Shown here: piece by piece, positions 5,592 to 49,209 of the stretch
Numbering within the stretch: position 1 is the first letter of the stretch
Layout: each line of letters begins with the position of its first letter
NCBI GenBank assembly: GCA_017536555.1
Contig: JAFXHE010000001.1
Location: 1 to 64,000 of the forward strand
Direction: 5' to 3'
DNA length: 64,000 bases
From: Alistipes sp.
GTDB lineage: Bacteria; Bacteroidota; Bacteroidia; Bacteroidales; Rikenellaceae
Position numbers and translations under genes: made by a program
The notes under the pieces: model-generated
The model's database searches: none
Seen by the model: only the letters and a program-made list of their open reading frames with translations
Told to the model about the DNA's origin: nothing

Positions 5592-5810
5592 ATGTGCGAG
5601 ATAATGAAAGAGATTAAATTTACAGACTTTTGGAAAGAGCTTGATGTGATGCAACGCAACCAGCTTCGCATATTGATTTGCCAAAAGGCAGAGTGTTCTC
5701 CTGCGACGGTGGACAAATATGGGATTGGTTATAGAAATCCAAACCCATACAAGAAAGTAAAAATCTGTAATCTGGTGCGAAAACATTTCAACACCATCGT
5801 AACCTTTTAA
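5592..5810 (+). CDS. Small early phage protein, possible DNA-binding
   Basis: 72 aa, first gene divergent from the repressor. The segment QRNQLRILICQKAECSPATV could form a helix-turn-helix resembling a Cro or transcription regulator, but there is no firm family match. It may start at the second methionine (MKEIKFTDFW). It is separated by 2 bp from the next small gene, suggesting an early operon with the primase gene. Position suggests a Cro-like or early regulatory role; this is inference. Confidence 0.6.
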   Translation: MCEIMKEIKFTDFWKELDVMQRNQLRILICQKAECSPATVDKYGIGYRNPNPYKKVKICNLVRKHFNTIVTF

Positions 5811-5812
5811 TT

Positions 5813-6004
5813 ATGTATTGGGACAAAGATAGCAGAGGCTTACTCTCAATAATGGAACTAACGCCAGACGAATTTGAAACGATCCGCCGAGCGTTATTAG
5901 CCTTTCGTTCAGGGATGGCGACGAAAGAACTAAATGAGTCTGAACCAAGCAGACAATATATTCGTGCGTCAAAGATTTTACGCACACTCTCTGATAAACA
6001 ATAA
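5813..6004 (+). CDS. Small early phage protein, unknown
   Basis: 63 aa, charged and mostly helical, with the segment ELTPDEFETIRRALLAFRSG. The tail (SEPSRQYIRASKILRTLSDKQ) is basic. It lies 2 bp after the previous gene and 24 bp before the primase gene. No recognisable domain; the gene is supported by tight packing and coding-like composition. Confidence 0.55.
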   Translation: MYWDKDSRGLLSIMELTPDEFETIRRALLAFRSGMATKELNESEPSRQYIRASKILRTLSDKQ

Positions 6005-37009: not shown

Positions 37010-40000
37010 ATGGCTGAAAAAATCGAAAAGGATATTCTTGACATCTCAACACCCTGGGAGGGCTATTCGGGAGAATTTGTCGAGAAGTTTATCAAAAAGC
37101 TTTTTGGAGAAAGATTAGGATATTTGGATAAAACATCTGACGAAACGGGCAAGGCAACGGTGCGTGGTTTCGCCAGTGTTGATTCTTATAACGAGTGGGC
37201 TGCAGATCCAGACAACAAACAAAGTTTGATATTGACGCAGATCGAGTTCTATGAGCAGACAGGTAGTGCAGACTACACTCTCGCAGCACGAATAACGCAA
37301 CAACCAGCTTCAACGGTTGTGAAGGGTGCCAGCAACATTGTCAAGTTCACATACAACTCATACTATGGTTCAGATAGCGCAGATTTGGATAGTGAGCCAG
37401 GTTATGCTCGAGTTATTATCAACTCAACAGTTGTCGATGCCTTATCGATGAGCCTCCCAGCTGGCGGACAAGAGTTCTCCATCGACCTCGGTCCATACCT
37501 GACGCAAGAAACGAACTCTGTGCAATTGACTATCGGCAATGCACACGGCAAATCGCGCCAATGGACTTTCACCCTCGACACTCGAGAAATCATATTGGCA
37601 ATTGATGACAGCTACGATGAGAGTTCTGTGCGTGATGCTGGATGGCTCCTCCGTGTCGCTTGTCGTGGTACTTCGGCTGAAGTACACTTGATAATTGATG
37701 ATGATCCTCTGACCGAGCAGCTGGCAACAATCAACAACTCAACATATGATTTTATTATTGATGCCGCTGATGCTTTGGCATACGGTTCTCACACCATTAA
37801 GCTCTATGCAACAAATGCAGAGTATGGAATCACCACAGATGTTATCACAACCTCGTTTATCAAGCGAGGTTTATCATCGCCTTCGGTTTGTATCGGAAAA
37901 GATACAGCCCGAAAAGCAAAGCTTTATGGCACGGCATCAATTCCCTACTACTTCTATTTCCCAACGGGCAATCCTGGTGATATCGTAACCGTAAACTTTG
38001 TCGTACTCGACAAGTCTGGTACTGCGCTATCGAGTGTTACATCACAGCAAGTGCAGCTGCTCGATGATCTTACCTCAGGAATGCAGGAGTGGAGATTAAC
38101 ACTTGGCGATAATGCCTATCTTGGCACCATCGTACCAACCATTCAGGTAGGTACTGCAAGTACATCGTTTGAGTTGGAGGTTATATCTGCAGGAGTAACA
38201 TTGGAAGCTGCTTCAGAATGTAAGGTGCATCTTTCGGCAGCAGGTAGAACTAATGCTGATAGCGATGCGGAGGATTGGCACTCGGAATACGGAGGTGTCC
38301 GAACTTGTACGGTTGTGCGCTCTGACAACTTCGACCTTATTGGTGATAACGGTTTCCATAACGACGGTTTCCACATTAAAGCTGGCAAGAGTATAACACT
38401 ATCGGGATTATCGCCTTTTGCGGCAGATTTTGGCGTTAATGCTGAAGCTTCGGCTGCTCGTACAGGAAAGACTATCGAATTTGAGTTTGAAACGGGAAAC
38501 TGCACCAATATCGATGCCCAGATTATTCGTTGTTTGAATGACGGTGTCGGTTTTGTAGTCTATGCAAACCGAGTAGAACTTCATTGTGCTGCTGGAGAGA
38601 TACACACTTTGTACTGCGATGAACAGCGTGTTCGCGTTGGTTTCTGTATTGATGGACAAACAACAACTTGCGTGAACGACACAGGAAACTCGGAGCAAGG
38701 TTCAACAACAACATATGCGAATATCGCATATATGTATGTTAATGGTGTCATCGTGCGTATGATGAACTATGACACCTCCGAGTGGAGGCAAACAACACCT
38801 CAAGAGGTCGTAATCGGCTCGCCCGATTGCGATGTTATACTCTATACCGTTAGAGTATATGACAAGAGCCTGAACTATCGTCAAATGATTGACAACTACG
38901 CCTATGATACCCCTGATTTGGAGGCAAAGATTGCAATAGCAAAAAGAAACGATGTTCTTGATAGTGCTGGTGCTGTAAGTTTGGCAAAGGTTCTTACAGC
39001 TCTCCCGAACACACCATACATCATTTGGGAGATGAAGCAGTTGCCCACTTCAAAGAACGACCCACGCACCTGCGATAGGACTGTATTTGTCAATCCTCAA
39101 TGGAATGAGGAGTTGGGCTATGCTCGAGCAAGTTTTACAGCTGGAGCGCACGAGATAAATGGCGATGGCACATCGTCAAACAACTACCCCCTGCCTTATA
39201 AGAATTGGGCAGAAACATTCGAGTTTAATAGTGATAATGCTTGGGTTGTCAATCTTCCTGAAGGTGATGTAGTGATAACAAAGTTTTCTATCACTCCTGG
39301 TGTGGAAGCCGCTGAAACCGACTTTGTCCACAAGGTAAACTTTGCGTCTTGTGAAGGCATTTTCAATATGCTTGCAATGAATGTGTACCAGGATATATTG
39401 GTGGCAGTCGCTACTGCTGCCAGCGGTTACCCAAGCATCTTGACAGCTCGCCAAGCAGAACAAGATGCAGCAGGTCTGGATATCACATTTAGACAGTCTT
39501 TAAGTGGCTTCCCCGAGATAGGTTTTCGCAGAACTTTTGATAACGCTGGAAATCCCACCGTTTCGTTCTTGTCGCTCTACAACTTCATAAACAACAAGTA
39601 TAGCCCATCAATGTTTGGGTACTCGAAAAAATCGGATAAGAATCAGATTTGGGAGGTAGATGACAATATCAACTTCTTTATGAGTCATCTTGACGAGGCT
39701 AAATGGAACGATGGCTTTGATAGCCTTACAACCACTTTGTACTATGCTCGAGTACCGAAAAAGTCGCTCGTGACAGGGGAGAAACTTGGTATTGCAGGAT
39801 CTTCAGACCAGGTGTCGCAAGCCAATGTAGAAACAGCTGCTCTTCGTCGCTTTCACAATTGGATTCAGTCTTGCAATCCTACCGTCGCCGAGCGATATCG
39901 ACTGCGCTATGGCAATTATCGAAAGTTGTCGATAGCAGAAGATGGCTACGAGCAGTACACCTATGGAGAGGAGGTATTTACAACCGATACCCCAGCATAT

Positions 40001-42727
40001 CGATATGCCAAGTTTGCCACCGAGTACTCGAAGTATCTTAACAAGTGGAGTGCTATATTCTACTTTATTTTCCTTACATACCACCTCGGCACTGACTCGA
40101 TGGATAAGAATATGTCTATCGCGTGTGATGATGTAACGGTAGATAATGCAAATTGGCTCGTATTCATACGAGATACGGACACCATCAACCTATTTAACAA
40201 CTCTGGTCTGCTTCGATGGATGTTCTTCCACGAATGGGGAGATTCCTTTGATGCTACAACGGGGCAGACAGGAACAGTTCTCGGGGAAACATACGATGCC
40301 ACCACAGGAACATATACTGCCACCACTTCTGCTGGCACACCAATCTTCAACGGGCGATTGTCGGGTTTATGGGATTGTGTTGCCAAAGTCTGGGAAGCTG
40401 ATATCAAGGCGATGTATGTAGCAATGCGTAGCGGAGGACTTAACGCTTCAGCTCTTTTTGCTAAATACAAAGAGTATTGGTCGCATTGGTGCGAGGCTCT
40501 TTACAATGTGGATGGTATGGGGTATGCAAATACGGGCAACTTCTCGATGGCGTATGGAGATAAGCTCGAGCTTACTCGATACTTCTACAAGTACCGACAG
40601 CGTTATTGGGACTCGAAGTGTGCCACAGGCGAAAGTTCTTCAAATGTATTGATGCTTCGTTTGTGGAAGAGAGGCGCAGGTGTCGCACTACGCCACTATT
40701 GTCCTATCTACGCATCACTCAACTGGGGCTCGGGAGGTGTTAAATCTCAACGAAACATTGAGGCTGGAAGTCCTGCATATTTCGAGAACGGTATCACTGC
40801 AAGCGGCGCAAACGAGGTTACTTTCTCTATCTATGATGCAGATTTGCTGACCGAGATATCAACCTATACCGTTGGTGCTGATGGCACAACAATAGAGAAA
40901 GGCTTGGAAGGTCTTGGGCAGATTGACATCCAAACTAATCTTCCCAAATGTCGGCGCTTAAAGAGGCTCATCCTGGCACATACTGCCGATACACCGAATA
41001 CGCAGCTCTCCAATTCAGGCTTCGATTTATCTGCGTGTACGATGCTCAAGGAGGTCGTTGTTACCTATAACACCTCTCTAACTCGAGCTGTAACCATTGC
41101 CAGCGAGATGATCGAGCGAATAGACTTCCGAGGCACGCCAATAGTCGGCATTACACTACCTTCAACAGATAGTCTGACCGAAATGCGACTACCTGCAACT
41201 ATCCAACGCCTTCGTCTATCAGGATTGGCGAAACTCTCAACATTTACCATTGAGGGTGCTGACTCGATGACCCAGGTACATATTAGCGGCTGTCCAGGAG
41301 TGAATAGTCAGATTATCATTGAAGCGTGCCTAAATAGAGAGAATCGTATCCTCGCAGCAGTAGAGATAGATGGTGTTGCTTGGACAAACTTCTCGGTTGA
41401 TCATCTGCTCTATCTTGCCCAGATAGGGGCTAAACTCTCGGGACGAATAGATTTGGCAACTTCGTCAAGCTCTACCATCAACTATGAGCAAAAGGCTATC
41501 CTGATGCAAGCCTTTGGAAATATTGACAACGAAAGCAATGGATTGTATGTAACCTACACAACCAGAAATATCAGTGAACTGAATATTACTGGTTCAAGTT
41601 ACATTTATATTGCAGGACAATATGAGTACAAGGCTGTGCCATCTCCAGCCTCTGCAAACTACTTTACGCCTATTAAATGGAGTATTAACGATGAAACATA
41701 CGCCACCATCGACGAGAACACTGGCGTAATAACGCTCAAGAATAATGCAACAGTTGGAGAGCCTACGGCAGTCATCACAGCGAAGACCACACGACTGAAT
41801 GATGGGGTAGAAGTATCGACAACAAAAACGATTGGCTTCTATAAGCGAGAAGTGAGAGTAGCGGACTTTGCTTACGCAGATGGTACATTTGACGATGTGC
41901 TTGACCGTAAAAAGACGGTAATAGGTATTGTTTACCAAATTGATGAGGACGAAAATGGCTTGATTCGCATTGTGGGCAAGGCTCGACCTGCAAGAACAAC
42001 TTGGGGTATCAATACACAAACAAATCCGACAGGTGATATACCATCGCTCAAGAACTATACGAACTACGATGGTACAAATAGTTATGTGCCAAGTGGAGCA
42101 AATTGGGAGTCGTTGTATCTCACACCTGATGGAGATGCATTCAAAAAATTTACAGGAGGGTCTTTTTCGGATTGGGACGGGCGAGGCAATACACAAAAGA
42201 TAATAGCATATCGTAATGAGATGCTACTTGCAGCGGATTTGGATATTCCTAACACACTGGAAGAACTCGATGAGCGATATAATGAGTTTGCCGCAGATAG
42301 CTCAAGTGAAGATTACATCCTTCGATTGTACTATTATAGGGCTGCTTCTGTCTGCAACTTCTATGAGCCAGCAGTAATGGAGGGAGAGGAACTTATAGAT
42401 GAATATAAGCAGGGTAATTGGTATTTGCCAGCAGAGGGAGAGTTGTCGCGCCTATATTGGTACCATCGTAAGGGCTATACGATTCCAGAAACACCCCCCG
42501 AGTATGAACACTCTATTCCAATTTTTGCAAAACCACGCAATCTGCTTGATGCTAACGGCGACACTTTGTTTCCTCAATTTATTGCCGATTGGCATTGGAG
42601 TTCAACCGAGTACAATTATCAAACATCCTGGGGCATCTACTTCTACAGTGGTTTCGCCTACGGCAGCCACCGTGGCAACAATTCCTTGGTGGTGCCCGTT
42701 GTAGCAATCGAAAAGTCAAAGGTTTAA
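37010..42727 (+). CDS. Receptor-binding tail protein, DGR target with variable C-type-lectin-like end
   Basis: 1905 aa. Visible parts: Ig-like beta domains (residues ~100-390), a LamG/concanavalin-like lectin domain (~400-625), and a central enzyme-like or CotH-kinase-like region (~830-1180, with HLGTDSMDKNMSI near 1025). LRR-like strands (~1300-1440) and a BIG2-like domain (~1530-1605) follow. A C-terminal C-type-lectin-fold domain (~1800-1905) has the DGR-target features GNWYLPAEGELSRLY and WHWSSTEYN. The last 28 variable residues (1873-1900) are encoded by VR 42626-42708. The 13 mutable AAC/AAT template codons currently encode G, Y, Y, S, F, Y, G, S, H, G, N, N, S. It is likely the adhesin that binds the bacterial surface. 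No signal peptide; only five residues follow the VR. Confidence 0.88.
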   Translation: MAEKIEKDILDISTPWEGYSGEFVEKFIKKLFGERLGYLDKTSDETGKATVRGFASVDSYNEWAADPDNKQSLILTQIEFYEQTGSADYTLAARITQQPASTVVKGASNIVKFTYNSYYGSDSADLDSEPGYARVIINSTVVDALSMSLPAGGQEFSIDLGPYLTQETNSVQLTIGNAHGKSRQWTFTLDTREIILAIDDSYDESSVRDAGWLLRVACRGTSAEVHLIIDDDPLTEQLATINNSTYDFIIDAADALAYGSHTIKLYATNAEYGITTDVITTSFIKRGLSSPSVCIGKDTARKAKLYGTASIPYYFYFPTGNPGDIVTVNFVVLDKSGTALSSVTSQQVQLLDDLTSGMQEWRLTLGDNAYLGTIVPTIQVGTASTSFELEVISAGVTLEAASECKVHLSAAGRTNADSDAEDWHSEYGGVRTCTVVRSDNFDLIGDNGFHNDGFHIKAGKSITLSGLSPFAADFGVNAEASAARTGKTIEFEFETGNCTNIDAQIIRCLNDGVGFVVYANRVELHCAAGEIHTLYCDEQRVRVGFCIDGQTTTCVNDTGNSEQGSTTTYANIAYMYVNGVIVRMMNYDTSEWRQTTPQEVVIGSPDCDVILYTVRVYDKSLNYRQMIDNYAYDTPDLEAKIAIAKRNDVLDSAGAVSLAKVLTALPNTPYIIWEMKQLPTSKNDPRTCDRTVFVNPQWNEELGYARASFTAGAHEINGDGTSSNNYPLPYKNWAETFEFNSDNAWVVNLPEGDVVITKFSITPGVEAAETDFVHKVNFASCEGIFNMLAMNVYQDILVAVATAASGYPSILTARQAEQDAAGLDITFRQSLSGFPEIGFRRTFDNAGNPTVSFLSLYNFINNKYSPSMFGYSKKSDKNQIWEVDDNINFFMSHLDEAKWNDGFDSLTTTLYYARVPKKSLVTGEKLGIAGSSDQVSQANVETAALRRFHNWIQSCNPTVAERYRLRYGNYRKLSIAEDGYEQYTYGEEVFTTDTPAYRYAKFATEYSKYLNKWSAIFYFIFLTYHLGTDSMDKNMSIACDDVTVDNANWLVFIRDTDTINLFNNSGLLRWMFFHEWGDSFDATTGQTGTVLGETYDATTGTYTATTSAGTPIFNGRLSGLWDCVAKVWEADIKAMYVAMRSGGLNASALFAKYKEYWSHWCEALYNVDGMGYANTGNFSMAYGDKLELTRYFYKYRQRYWDSKCATGESSSNVLMLRLWKRGAGVALRHYCPIYASLNWGSGGVKSQRNIEAGSPAYFENGITASGANEVTFSIYDADLLTEISTYTVGADGTTIEKGLEGLGQIDIQTNLPKCRRLKRLILAHTADTPNTQLSNSGFDLSACTMLKEVVVTYNTSLTRAVTIASEMIERIDFRGTPIVGITLPSTDSLTEMRLPATIQRLRLSGLAKLSTFTIEGADSMTQVHISGCPGVNSQIIIEACLNRENRILAAVEIDGVAWTNFSVDHLLYLAQIGAKLSGRIDLATSSSSTINYEQKAILMQAFGNIDNESNGLYVTYTTRNISELNITGSSYIYIAGQYEYKAVPSPASANYFTPIKWSINDETYATIDENTGVITLKNNATVGEPTAVITAKTTRLNDGVEVSTTKTIGFYKREVRVADFAYADGTFDDVLDRKKTVIGIVYQIDEDENGLIRIVGKARPARTTWGINTQTNPTGDIPSLKNYTNYDGTNSYVPSGANWESLYLTPDGDAFKKFTGGSFSDWDGRGNTQKIIAYRNEMLLAADLDIPNTLEELDERYNEFAADSSSEDYILRLYYYRAASVCNFYEPAVMEGEELIDEYKQGNWYLPAEGELSRLYWYHRKGYTIPETPPEYEHSIPIFAKPRNLLDANGDTLFPQFIADWHWSSTEYNYQTSWGIYFYSGFAYGSHRGNNSLVVPVVAIEKSKV
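42626..42708 (+). repeat. DGR variable region (VR)
   Basis: 83 bp at the 3' end of the tail protein gene, aligned without gaps to TR 43715-43797. All 53 template non-A positions are identical; 16 of 30 template A positions differ. Changes include AAC to GGC, TAC, TTC, AGC, CAC and TCC, and AAT to AGT. The final 24 bp, CTTGGTGGTGCCCGTTGTAG plus CAAT, are identical and likely contain the homing-initiation site. Confidence 0.95.
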
Positions 42728-42764
42728 CTCTTTAACTCTTTAACTCTTTAACACTTTAACTCTT
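42726..42764. repeat. 8-bp microsatellite after the DGR target
   Basis: AACTCTTT repeated about five times (one copy AACACTTT), beginning at the stop codon of the tail protein gene and 17 bp after the VR. It separates the VR from the hairpin at 42768-42782. Confidence 0.8.
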
Positions 42765-42767
42765 AAT

Positions 42768-42782
42768 ACTCCCGAAGGGAGT
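42768..42782. other. Hairpin downstream of the VR (DGR target-recognition or terminator)
   Basis: ACTCCC-GAA-GGGAGT: a perfect 6-bp stem and 3-base loop, 59 bp past the VR. Several DGRs need a short hairpin or cruciform just downstream of the VR for homing. It is further from the VR than in the Bordetella phage case. The A/T run after it also allows a weak terminator. Confidence 0.5.
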
Positions 42783-42801
42783 CGAAAAAATTTTTGGAAA
42801 A

Positions 42802-43188
42802 ATGGATATTCAAAATTTTCAAACTTTTGAGGTGCGCCCTCCGTTAGTTCAGATGTCAGAGAGCAGACTTCGTCGCAAATATAAAATTTCGTGGGGCGAA
42901 GAAAAGTTTGTGAATGACGACGGGGTCGAGGTTTATAAAATATTCTCTGTCGAAATCGGACGAGAGTTTTCCTATGGCTCAATAATTTCAGCAATCATAT
43001 CGCAGAGGTACTCTAATGACGATGTTACGGCTATCAGCCTTAATTATCTGAACAAGGAGTGCGCTTCAGAAACAAAACGCATAGAGTATTCAGCAGAATA
43101 CCAAGCTCTGCAAGACTGGCGTTCAATGGCTAAAGAGGTGGCTGCTAAAGCAGTCGCCTATGCCAAAGAACGACAATGGATTGAGTGA
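42802..43188 (+). CDS. Unknown protein inside the DGR cassette
   Basis: 128 aa, between target and avd-like gene. Mixed alpha/beta N-terminus (YKISWGEEKFVNDDGVEVYK) and a helical C-terminus (WRSMAKEVAAKAVAYAKERQ). No recognised family. It may be a chaperone or trimerisation factor for the tail protein, or a DGR accessory; position is the only clue. Its 3' end overlaps the promoter of the avd-like gene. Confidence 0.6.
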   Translation: MDIQNFQTFEVRPPLVQMSESRLRRKYKISWGEEKFVNDDGVEVYKIFSVEIGREFSYGSIISAIISQRYSNDDVTAISLNYLNKECASETKRIEYSAEYQALQDWRSMAKEVAAKAVAYAKERQWIE

Positions 43189-43212
43189 GTTTAGAAATTT
43201 TTGCTACCTTTG
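43181..43212 (+). promoter_or_regulatory. Vegetative-type promoter for the avd-TR-RT transcript
   Basis: TTG at 43181-43183, 21 bp, TACCTTTG at 43205-43212; ATG at 43230. It matches the host consensus and lacks the GTCCTTTT box of the phage late promoters. Confidence 0.7.
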
Positions 43213-43229
43213 TGGCAAATTCCTAAACA

Positions 43230-43622
43230 ATGGCAGTTGCACAAAAGTTAGATGTGTACCGCGATATGTACTCGTTGCTGATGACAATCGAGGACTTGCG
43301 CGTACACTTTCCAAAGATGTATAAATACGACTTCGGCAACGAACTCTTTATGACTGGAGTCGCTTGCTGTGAGTTGATACAATCAGCAAATATGACACGA
43401 GGTTTGGAGCGATTCAAACTTCTTCAACAGTTCATTGTTAAATTCGGTACGCTGAAATTGCTTCTACGGATATGTAAAGACAGGCGTATAATCAGTATTG
43501 ACGATAATGCCAATGTTATCTTACTACTGGAGAACATAGGTCGTCAAGCAACTGGTTGGAAAAATGCTACGCTGGCAACACTGCCAGATAGCGTTAAGAA
43601 GACCTTAAATCCAGAGCCATAA
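43230..43622 (+). CDS. avd: DGR accessory variability determinant (Avd-like)
   Basis: 130 aa, all-helical and basic, with the segment FPKMYKYDFGNELFMTGVAC. Size and pattern match the four-helix-bundle Avd/S23-like family that forms a pentamer, binds the DGR reverse transcriptase and template RNA, and is needed for mutagenic retrohoming. It lies directly upstream of the TR and RT, the standard cassette order, with an 8-bp gap. Confidence 0.82.
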   Translation: MAVAQKLDVYRDMYSLLMTIEDLRVHFPKMYKYDFGNELFMTGVACCELIQSANMTRGLERFKLLQQFIVKFGTLKLLLRICKDRRIISIDDNANVILLLENIGRQATGWKNATLATLPDSVKKTLNPEP

Positions 43623-43630
43623 TCGTTACG

Positions 43631-45052
43631 ATGGTTATGGGAGAGAAACTCGACTTTTCGATTGGGTCGCCCACCGACGAGCAGTCGGTTAAGACCAAGA
43701 CAGTGGCGACAGCCTCCTGGAACATCAACTTCAACAATGGTAACGCCAACAACAACAACCGTAACAACAATAACTTGGTGGTGCCCGTTGTAGCAATTGG
43801 GGAGAGAGTCTATGACATTCCATTTGTGGAGGTGCTGAAAGCGTATGCTGATTGCATCAAACACAAGAAGTCAAAAGGTCAGTGTATCGAATTTTCGATG
43901 AACGCAGAGGAAGAACTCGTGCAACTTCATCGAGAACTCTGCGATGGCACCTACCAGCCAGCGCAGAGTTATTGTTTTATAGTCGATAGACCAGTTAAGC
44001 GAGAAATAATAGCCTCTGCTTTTAGAGATCGCATTGTGCATCATTTCTTGAAAATGCGACTAAATCCCCTATATGAAGCCTGGTACCACGAATGCGGCAA
44101 TGTGTCAAAAAACTGCCGAAAAGGCGAAGGACCAGACTCTGCAGCCAATGAATTAGAGCGTATGATATACGAGGAAAGCAATGCCTATACGAGGGATTGC
44201 TGGGTACTCTCGTTCGATATTCATAGCTATTTTATGAGTATCGACAAATCTATCCTATGGGAGATGATGGAGCAATTTATTCGCGACAAATATGAGGGAG
44301 AAGATATTGACCTCGTATTGTGGCTTGCTCGTATTACTGCGTTCCATTGTCCACAGAAGAATTGTCGTCGTATGTCCCCATTATCAGCGTGGGAGGGTCT
44401 GCCTCCAAGCAAAAGCTTACGCTACAATGATCCGAACATAGGTATCGCTCCGGGCAACCTTTCATCACAAGATGAAGCCAACTTTTATCTTACCCCCCTC
44501 GACTATTTTATCGTAAAGATTAAAAAGTTTGAGAAGTATGTGCGGTTTATGGATGATGGGAAGATTGTCAGCAACAATCTGGAATCTTTGAGGGGGTTGC
44601 AGGGGGAGATTGACGAGTTCTTGAAAGAACAGCTCCGAGTGCAGCTGCATCCAAAGAAGTGTCATATCACTCATTATTCAAAGGGGATTAAGTTTGTTGG
44701 CAGGATATTGAAACCTGGAAGAAAATACATATCCAATCGCATTTTGGGACATTTCTACGACACAATACATCACTACAATCAGATAGCAGAAAATGGAGAT
44801 GCCGAAAAGTTTGTGGACAAGTTTGCAGCATCCATCAATAGCTATTGGGGAATGATGGTCCACACAAACAGTTATAGTCGTCGAATGAAAACAGCAAAGA
44901 TGATATCCCCGATATGGTTCAAGTATATTTACATTACAGCGTGCTGTACAAAGGTTGTCATACGCAACCGCTACAAGCCCAAGAACCGAGCAAAGCGAAT
45001 AGTAAAGAGTAAATCTTATGCAGAATTTTTAACGCCTGAAATGTTCCAATAA
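43631..45052 (+). CDS. DGR reverse transcriptase (reading frame includes the TR)
   Basis: 473 aa as drawn. RT motifs: VLSFDIHSYFMSID (motif A aspartate, ~196), GIAPGNLSSQDEANF (the DGR-type GxxxSQ motif, ~270) and FMDDGKIV (catalytic motif C, FMDD at 306-309, in place of YxDD). Conserved length for a DGR RT is about 300-400 aa; the first ~55 residues are encoded by the TR (asparagine-rich, SWNINFNNGNANNNN) and its upstream flank. An ATG start coupled to avd (8 bp after its stop) makes translation through the TR plausible. A later start near residue 45-60 (GTG/TTG at the TR end) is the alternative. It copies TR RNA with adenine errors into VR. Confidence 0.9.
   Translation: MVMGEKLDFSIGSPTDEQSVKTKTVATASWNINFNNGNANNNNRNNNNLVVPVVAIGERVYDIPFVEVLKAYADCIKHKKSKGQCIEFSMNAEEELVQLHRELCDGTYQPAQSYCFIVDRPVKREIIASAFRDRIVHHFLKMRLNPLYEAWYHECGNVSKNCRKGEGPDSAANELERMIYEESNAYTRDCWVLSFDIHSYFMSIDKSILWEMMEQFIRDKYEGEDIDLVLWLARITAFHCPQKNCRRMSPLSAWEGLPPSKSLRYNDPNIGIAPGNLSSQDEANFYLTPLDYFIVKIKKFEKYVRFMDDGKIVSNNLESLRGLQGEIDEFLKEQLRVQLHPKKCHITHYSKGIKFVGRILKPGRKYISNRILGHFYDTIHHYNQIAENGDAEKFVDKFAASINSYWGMMVHTNSYSRRMKTAKMISPIWFKYIYITACCTKVVIRNRYKPKNRAKRIVKSKSYAEFLTPEMFQ
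43715..43797 (+). repeat. DGR template repeat (TR)
   Basis: 83 bp containing thirteen AAC/AAT codons in the VR reading frame. It is also open in the frame of the RT gene, which is the same codon frame. Adenine content 30 of 83. It differs from VR only at adenines. Confidence 0.95.
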
Positions 45053-45054
45053 GT

Positions 45055-45089
45055 GTCCTTTTGTAGCCGTCAATCGACGGCTACTTTTG
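45055..45089 (+). promoter_or_regulatory. Phage late-type promoter 4, with hairpin in its spacer
   Basis: GTCCTTTT at 45055-45062, 19 bp, TACTTTTG at 45082-45089. The spacer is the perfect hairpin TAGCCGTC-AATC-GACGGCTA and, with the following T-rich box, can terminate the RT transcript. The ATG of the lysis-region gene is only 4 bp past the -7 box. Confidence 0.75.
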
Positions 45090-45093
45090 CACT

Positions 45094-45720
45094 ATGGAAC
45101 AGGTATTAAAAGAATTTGCACCCTACATTTCGCCAATCATCACAGCGATAGGCGTAATATTGATTGCGTGGTGGAAGCACGACCAGCCACGCCAAGAGGC
45201 TCGTATCAAGTTGGAACTTCAAAAGAAAGAAGCAGAGTTGCAAGAGAAGAGCAAACGACGCAATCAATATGTATCTCAAATCTACGGACTTTTATGGCAA
45301 CTGCTACACGACCTCAAGGCAGATCGTGTGTATATAGTGCAGCCCCACCCTTTGACACATAGAGAGTATTTATCTATCTCACTGGAGGTCGATAGGACAG
45401 GTGCATCAGGGATGAAATCTCGCATCCAAAACCTCCCGATGGAAGATGTTGCAAAGTTCTCTTCTGAATTATCGTCAAGAGATTTCTTATACTATAAAGA
45501 TGTTGCGAACAATGTTCGTGACAAAAGAGCAAGGGCATTACTACTCAATGCTGGTTCGATGTCCGCTATCATACGGAAACTTGCGACAGAGGATGATGGT
45601 TGGGTGGGCAACATTTTTTGCGAGTTCAATCATATAACAGAAACATCACCTGACTATGCAAGGGGACGACTCGAGGCAGTTGCAGAACAAATCCAATACA
45701 TATTACCTCCTATTCAATAA
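45094..45720 (+). CDS. Membrane-anchored coiled-coil protein with GAF-like domain (lysis region)
   Basis: 208 aa. One membrane segment (YISPIITAIGVILIAWW, ~12-28), a charged coiled coil (~32-58), then a domain with LKADRVYIVQPHPLTHREYL that recalls a GAF fold (~65-200). It precedes the amidase, where a holin would be expected, but one membrane helix plus a large cytoplasmic domain is unlike typical holins. The mRNA is probably leaderless. It could control or assist lysis. Confidence 0.6.
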   Translation: MEQVLKEFAPYISPIITAIGVILIAWWKHDQPRQEARIKLELQKKEAELQEKSKRRNQYVSQIYGLLWQLLHDLKADRVYIVQPHPLTHREYLSISLEVDRTGASGMKSRIQNLPMEDVAKFSSELSSRDFLYYKDVANNVRDKRARALLLNAGSMSAIIRKLATEDDGWVGNIFCEFNHITETSPDYARGRLEAVAEQIQYILPPIQ

Positions 45721-49135: not shown

Positions 49136-49150
49136 GTAGCGGGGGGAGGA
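49136..49150. other. attR: right attachment core within tRNA-fMet
   Basis: GTAGCGGGGGGAGGA, identical to 4910-4924. It covers the 3' acceptor and T-stem of tRNA-fMet, so integration leaves the tRNA complete. Confidence 0.85.
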
Positions 49151-49209
49151 CTCGAACCTCCGACCTCCGGGTTATGAGCCCGACGAGCTGCCAACTGCTC
49201 TACCCCGCG
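49137..49209 (-). tRNA. Initiator tRNA-fMet (CAT)
   Basis: 73 nt, cloverleaf with acceptor CGCGGGG / CCCCGCU, D-arm GAGC/GCTC, anticodon stem TCGGG-CTCATAA-CCCGG, and T-arm GGAGG-TTCGAGT-CCTCC. Three G-C pairs in the anticodon stem and an unpaired C1/U72 mark the initiator. CCA is not encoded. Its 3' end is the prophage attachment site. Confidence 0.95.

Follow-up and report, generated by a model that had tools for sequence, protein, structure and literature searches.

A leader RNA segment complementary to the variable-repeat edge in a prophage diversity-generating retroelement, and its possible role as a homing guide

In diversity-generating retroelements (DGRs), a complex of reverse transcriptase (RT) and the accessory protein Avd copies the RNA of a template repeat (TR) with errors at adenines, and the resulting cDNA replaces the variable repeat (VR) in a target gene. 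How this cDNA finds the VR yet spares the closely similar TR was stated to be open in the pertinent passages of a 2026 article (PMC12875486). The same question is raised by a DGR in the window, by which we mean the entire 64,000-nucleotide stretch of Alistipes sp. DNA analyzed here, where a short segment encoded upstream of the TR is the exact complement of the sequence spanning the edge of the VR.

The retroelement and signs of recent copying

The window has prophage-like content, including a primase, a head maturation protease, a minor tail protein, an amidase, an integrase and a tRNA-Met (49136-49209), and the locus is a DGR within an Alistipes-type prophage of a gut bacterium. The target gene (37010..42727; + strand, as are all DGR features described below) is a tail-region open reading frame of 1905 aa that carries the VR at its 3′ end. 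It matches PHROG 14959 and 24896, whose function is unknown, and its C-terminal part matches Pfam Lcl_C at 31.2 bits, below the cut-off of 34.9; the C-type lectin fold of DGR targets is a candidate for this part. Downstream lie a 128-aa ORF of unknown function (42802..43188), for which Pfam and PHROG searches returned no matches at E<=0.1, the bAvd accessory protein gene (43230..43622), and the RT ORF (43631..45052). The accessory protein scores 39.9 bits against Pfam bAvd (cut-off 40) and matches PHROG 3206, ‘Avd protein of DGR’, at E=2.2e-20, whereas the RT matches Pfam RVT_1 and PHROG 1423 and contains the sequences GNLSSQ and FMDD. Among solved structures, the chain nearest to the RT is 8ub7_A (‘Reverse transcriptase’, E=4e-14), which we take to be the RT of phage BPP-1. 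The first-pass annotation of this DNA had named an Avd-like gene and an RT with GxxxSQ and FMDD motifs, and both identifications hold; its placement of a DGR in a prophage is supported, the DGR by the VR/TR pattern, the target gene, bAvd and the RT.

The VR (42626..42708) and the TR (43715..43797) form a gapless alignment of 83 bp, recovered at exactly the coordinates first proposed, with 67 identical and 16 different positions. As had been claimed, the changes in the VR are confined to template adenines, with all 16 occurring at TR adenines and none at the 53 non-A positions (hypergeometric P = 2.8e-9). Eight of these are A>G, six A>T and two A>C, and 14 of the 30 TR adenines are unchanged. 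We likewise counted 13 AAC/AAT codons in the TR and, as NNC specifies 15 amino acids, arrive at a theoretical diversity of 15^13, or about 2e15, in agreement with the earlier figure of more than 10^14.

The first-pass annotation had further proposed that the system acted recently in this prophage lineage, and had suggested that VRs of relatives be examined for change restricted to TR adenines. Two close relatives, L026 (RT 99% identical to that of the window, with a different VR) and L030 (RT 93% identical), were examined in this way. TR adenines account for 13/13 differences in L026 and 15/16 in L030, the sixteenth being the first base, which lies outside the 82-bp repeat of L030. At positions that distinguish two TRs without an A in either, each VR matches the base of its own TR (4/4 for the window and L026, 5/5 for the window and L030, and 4/4 for L026 and L030). 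Because each VR has the non-A bases of its own TR, the VR appears to have been overwritten from the TR after these three lineages split, which is consistent with the proposed recent action and points to homing since that time. A further record, L241, is probably a duplicate of L026 and was given no separate count. We excluded L027 (70% RT identity) from the counts; here the VR runs directly into the TR and Avd is absent, a layout that reflects recombination or assembly collapse, and the frame of the RT shifts.

A leader segment complementary to the VR edge

A repeat search revealed a perfect 13-nt inverted match between a segment located 51 to 63 nt upstream of the TR (43652..43664; GACUUUUCGAUUG), which we designate the proposed guide in the leader RNA, and a proposed guide-binding site (42705..42717; CAATCGAAAAGTC) that comprises the last 4 nt of the VR and 9 nt downstream and so spans the 3′ edge of the VR. 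L026 and L030 retain the match, over 13 nt and 15 nt, respectively. Within 3 kb, a single exact 13-mer could arise by chance, and the locus might on that account be an ordinary DGR with fortuitous leader complementarity; however, 0/5000 shuffles of the leader reach 13 nt, and the match is placed exactly at the VR edge. Judged from the sequences, base pairing between the guide and the VR flank in the window is very likely to be real.

The guide is followed by a leader stem, GGUC/GACC, with an inner hairpin, ACCGAC-GAGCA-GUCGGU (43665..43696), in the predicted minimum-energy fold, and the same structure is found in L026 and L030. In the minimum-energy fold of 43640-43810 (-51.3 kcal/mol, z -2.2; 5/200 shuffles as good), the guide is paired with the 3′ end of the TR and its flank (43794..43804; CAAUUGGGGAG) through 11 bp, several of them G-U, and the TR is closed into a loop. 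This guide:TR-flank helix is also present in the minimum-energy structures of L026 and L030. By RNA parameters, the duplex energy of the guide is -15.7 kcal/mol with the TR flank and -21.3 kcal/mol with the VR flank. The guide, the leader hairpin and the TR all lie in frame within the first 56 codons of the RT ORF, and about 30 nt separate the end of the TR from the start of the conserved part of the RT. The window thus departs from the BPP-1-type layout, in which a non-coding spacer separates TR and RT, recruits RT-Avd and serves in priming, as here the RT frame is open through the TR.

We consider it rather probable that this leader segment sets the cDNA start on the TR and then guides the RNA-cDNA to the VR. 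As the predicted fold would imply, the guide might first fold onto the TR 3′ end and flank, thereby fixing the cDNA start opposite G43793. This nucleotide is TR 79, two bases beyond TR 77, the last non-A difference between TRs that has been copied to a VR. The cDNA would then remain joined or close to the guide, a step suggested by analogy with reports on BPP-1. Finally, the guide would bind CAATCGAAAAGTC and the cDNA the VR body, so that both occupy adjoining stretches of the VR top strand and the copy is delivered to the VR. Target and template would be told apart by the perfect pairing of the guide with the VR, as opposed to the G-U pairs or mismatches in its pairing with the TR. There is precedent in group II introns, retroelements with a related RT whose RNA recognizes its DNA target through EBS-IBS base pairing. 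The proposed guide would work in the manner of this interaction, although we do not claim membership of that class: the window has neither ribozyme nor reverse splicing, and its guide is a single short segment.

Alternatively, the segment might be structural only, with pairing to the TR 3′ flank setting the cDNA start and the match to the VR reflecting the shared ancestry of VR and TR without any use in targeting. The window itself argues against this explanation, in that the guide forms 13 perfect pairs with the VR but 11 with the TR, including G-U pairs; other DGRs contribute evidence on both sides.

Leader complementarity in other DGRs

TR/VR pairs were detected in 97 of 118 sequences. When leaders were compared with VR flanks without an anchor, using windows from the same locus as the control, 7/142 VRs had p<0.05 and 3/142 had p<0.01. 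The latter three are the window lineage, and beyond this lineage no overall excess was found among the 142 VRs in this test. In a shuffled-flank test, p<0.05 was obtained for 13/165 VRs and 8/165 TRs, and p<0.01 for 5/165 VRs. The little excess that unanchored tests gave over all loci is compatible with chance complementarity. The standouts were L034, L065, L066, L070, L083, L139 and L140, in each of which the locus's own VR flank is matched by a different segment. Complementarity by itself does not equal function.

Five RTs from standouts and their near relatives (L140, L139, L138, L070 and L083) were used to fetch an independent set of 80 viral loci (class B). Sixty of these have a TR/VR pair and 57 have an anchor motif located from the RNA sequence alone, yielding 34 distinct guides; 20 loci lack a TR/VR pair, and no anchor was located in L065 and L138 (discovery) or in L160, L176 and L200 (test set). 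The discovery loci L070, L083, L139 and L140 were removed before counting, and 2 of the 57 test loci, L172 and L193, share contigs with L083 and L070 and so are not independent. In most class B leaders, a variable segment is followed by a constant motif, CATAGG or CACAGG.

The mean perfect run of the 34 guides is 10.6 nt with their own VR flanks and 4.6 nt with swapped flanks, and the own flank is the best or tied best for 30/34. None of 20,000 permutations reaches the observed sum of own-flank runs. Single-linkage clustering left 12 clusters, and one guide from each was tested over the 13 variable nt most distant from the anchor; runs of at least 7 nt occur in 8/12 own pairings and in 1/132 swapped ones. 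The leader fold immediately after the guide covaries, with compensatory changes in 20/26 pairs (18 leaders picked from 38). Complementarity and conservation of the guide are thus shown, as is covariation in other DGRs, and on these comparisons the base pairing of guide and VR flank in class B is beyond reasonable doubt. The recurrence of the same relation in an independent set also makes chance a very improbable source of the match in the window.

Class B bears on the structural explanation as well. The run with the VR exceeds that with the TR for 32/34 guides and is shorter for none, and the flanks of the two repeats diverge in sequence; common descent alone would not hold the VR in step with a changing guide.

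Another possibility is that the pairing occurs between RNAs, within or between transcripts, with the leader contacting the end of the target mRNA in, for example, regulation or processing. Both in the window and in 61/61 class B loci, the VR precedes the leader on a common strand, and VR and leader could therefore share one transcript. We nevertheless regard this alternative as improbable. The site always starts at the VR edge, as homing would predict; in class B, it begins, usually at the stop codon, directly after the last base that the two repeats have in common. In addition, the VR of L042/L043, a single weak case, lies on the other strand, yet the anchored stretch of the leader still fits it (7 nt) better than the TR. 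In BPP-1, moreover, the match lies in the spacer 3′ of the TR (see below).

Leaders of the window type (class A) were represented by 31 lineages hand-chosen by RT type and layout, from which class B, RT-15-type and duplicate loci had been dropped. These leaders pair with their own TR flank, with 0/50,000 permutations reaching the observed value, and less strongly with their own VR flank (423/50,000). The leader score is nonetheless higher for the VR end than for the TR end in 19 lineages, lower in 10 and equal in 2, and windows from the RT gene exceed the mean VR-minus-TR difference in 58/20,000 cases. On visual inspection, non-A differences between VR and TR near the end are often matched on the VR side by the 3′ part of the segment (L147, L149, L242 and L126), and the 5′ part of the same segments pairs with the TR flank; L248 runs the opposite way.

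RT-15-type DGRs exhibit a related pattern. The Rfam RT-15 RNA (RF03018), a structured leader immediately 5′ of the TR in proteobacterial DGRs, resembles the window leader in its position; its model matches the leader of L060 at 5694-5882, where the TR extends from 5880. The covariance model had no match in 41800-45300 of the window at E<=10, and an Rfam search of the window leader returned no family, the best E value being 6.8, from unrelated families. For 27 distinct RT-15-type segments, own flanks match better than swapped ones, with permutation counts of 0/20,000 for the TR flank and 16/20,000 for the VR flank. The segment of L096 matches each of its two VRs, over 8 and 7 nt, but does not fit the TR (4 nt). 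The stronger TR-flank signal in window-type and RT-15-type leaders favors the structural explanation, as does the TR-flank pairing of 14-16 nt in L126, L036 and L002. Set against the better fit to the VR in the window and in class B, these observations leave a structural role without targeting unlikely in our estimation.

Bacteroides uniformis phages F2 and F4 (L149 and L150) share with the window the order target, bAvd, RT, amidase, and a leader segment (UAAAAAUG) that pairs with the VR end (CATTTTTA). They differ in that their RTs are about 35-36% identical to that of the window and in that it is the TR flank, rather than the VR flank, to which the leader segment pairs through its 5′ part.

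BPP-1 (NC_005357; L152) resembles the window in its adenine-only TR/VR differences, Avd, RT, VR-ended target and inverted repeat after the VR. It differs in where the match sits: the proposed guide of the window is 5′ of the TR, whereas in BPP-1 the match is in the 144-nt spacer between TR and RT. There, AGGTGGTCA at spacer positions 48-56 complements VR 118-126, within the VR-specific IMH, where the TR differs. This 9-nt match is equalled in 9/3000 shuffles, and 9 nt are also reached by 5/165 overlapping 144-nt windows of a 12-kb BPP-1 stretch. In work by Handa in 2018, BPP-1 cDNA was reportedly primed at spacer A56 and started at TR G117, and the 9-nt match presumably ends at this priming adenine. 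If so, RNA and cDNA would together constitute one complement of the VR across their junction. PMC12875486 confirms that an adenine inside the spacer, within IMH*, serves in priming, and calls the homing step incompletely understood. As a family, the BPP-1-like spacers of 13 phages give a weak signal (VR, 895/20,000, p ~0.045; TR, 1451/20,000, p ~0.07). Among 15 fetched phages, the 9-nt match is repeated in the BPP-1 relative L274 alone, and L269, L271 and L279 have runs of 7 nt that abut the end of the VR. The repeat pair of L269 looks unreliable, having 6 differences and lying far from the annotated target.

Marks on the target and implications for homing

A candidate target hairpin, the inverted repeat ACTCCC-GAA-GGGAGT (42768..42782), follows the VR by 59 bp and is present in L026 and L030. 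It has a 6-bp stem and a loop, GAA, of the GRNA/GRA type; GRA loops are reported for DGR hairpins in the portion of PMC4372165 that treats them. The distance of 59 bp exceeds the 4-34 bp given for the downstream hairpins of a phage set in the corresponding part of PMC3240598. Between VR and hairpin, a repeat search detected repeats with an 8-bp period (42723..42764; TTTAACTC), and a lag-8 excess is likewise found in other class A and in RT-15-type flanks. Such hairpins occur in 15/28 window-type loci (controls 0/28) and 9/11 of the BPP-1 type (controls 1/11), as compared with 3/20 in class B (controls 1/20) and 1/26 of the RT-15 type (controls 0/26). The rarity of the hairpin in class B, where guides are longest, hints at two ways of marking the target.

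Because the match sits at the edge of the VR, fits the VR more closely than the TR and has a parallel in BPP-1, we infer that the guide probably acts in homing. Whether DGRs at large are RNA-guided is in our judgment an evenly balanced question. In such a scheme, a segment beside the cDNA start would position that start and double as the guide, and RNA and cDNA would complement the VR top strand without interruption across their junction. The difference between IMH and IMH* would then be that between guide match and guide mismatch, and the long guides of class B would replace the target hairpin of other DGRs.

The DGR itself is of a known kind, and a leader guide that pairs with the VR edge is provisionally a new feature: no earlier report of such a guide was found in the open-access journal literature searched. 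A guide that is readable from sequence would help to explain how the target is found and the template spared, and would provide a rule for predicting targets and cDNA start sites. It may also make the targeting of DGRs programmable.

Sequences between VR and Avd

The interval separating the variable repeat (VR) from the Avd gene contains, on the window's forward strand, a series of T-rich repeats with an 8-bp period (42723-42764), which lies between VR and the hairpin (42768-42782). Self-match at a lag of 8 reaches 0.38 in the flanks of class A (window-type) loci and of RT-15-type loci alike, with controls at 0.25 and 0.23. The interval also holds a 128-aa open reading frame (42802-43188), for which searches of Pfam and PHROG returned 0 matches; a start resembling that of this frame follows VR on its 3′ side in the two nearest relatives, L026 and L030.

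VR matches in the leader

In six loci (L159, L165, L166, L169, L170 and L186), the final 7 nt of VR, GGTTCAG, are repeated in the leader immediately 5′ of the guide. At L042 and L043, the template repeat (TR) and VR occupy opposite strands, and the leader's match to VR (7 nt) nevertheless exceeds its match to TR.

Irregular loci and the RT reading frame

At L027 (8960-9120), VR passes directly into TR and then into RT, and Avd is absent, an arrangement representing either VR-TR recombination or assembly collapse. The RT copy of L030 (10002) may be broken, because its open frame stops ~415 nt short of the end of the tblastn match.

Among 28 window-type loci queried, 2 lacked any frame; the RT frame is open across TR in 16 of the 26 scored, and the frame used varies between loci. 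In the window, TR and the RT ORF share one reading frame (43631-43797), and thus RT may possess a TR-encoded Asn-rich N-terminus.
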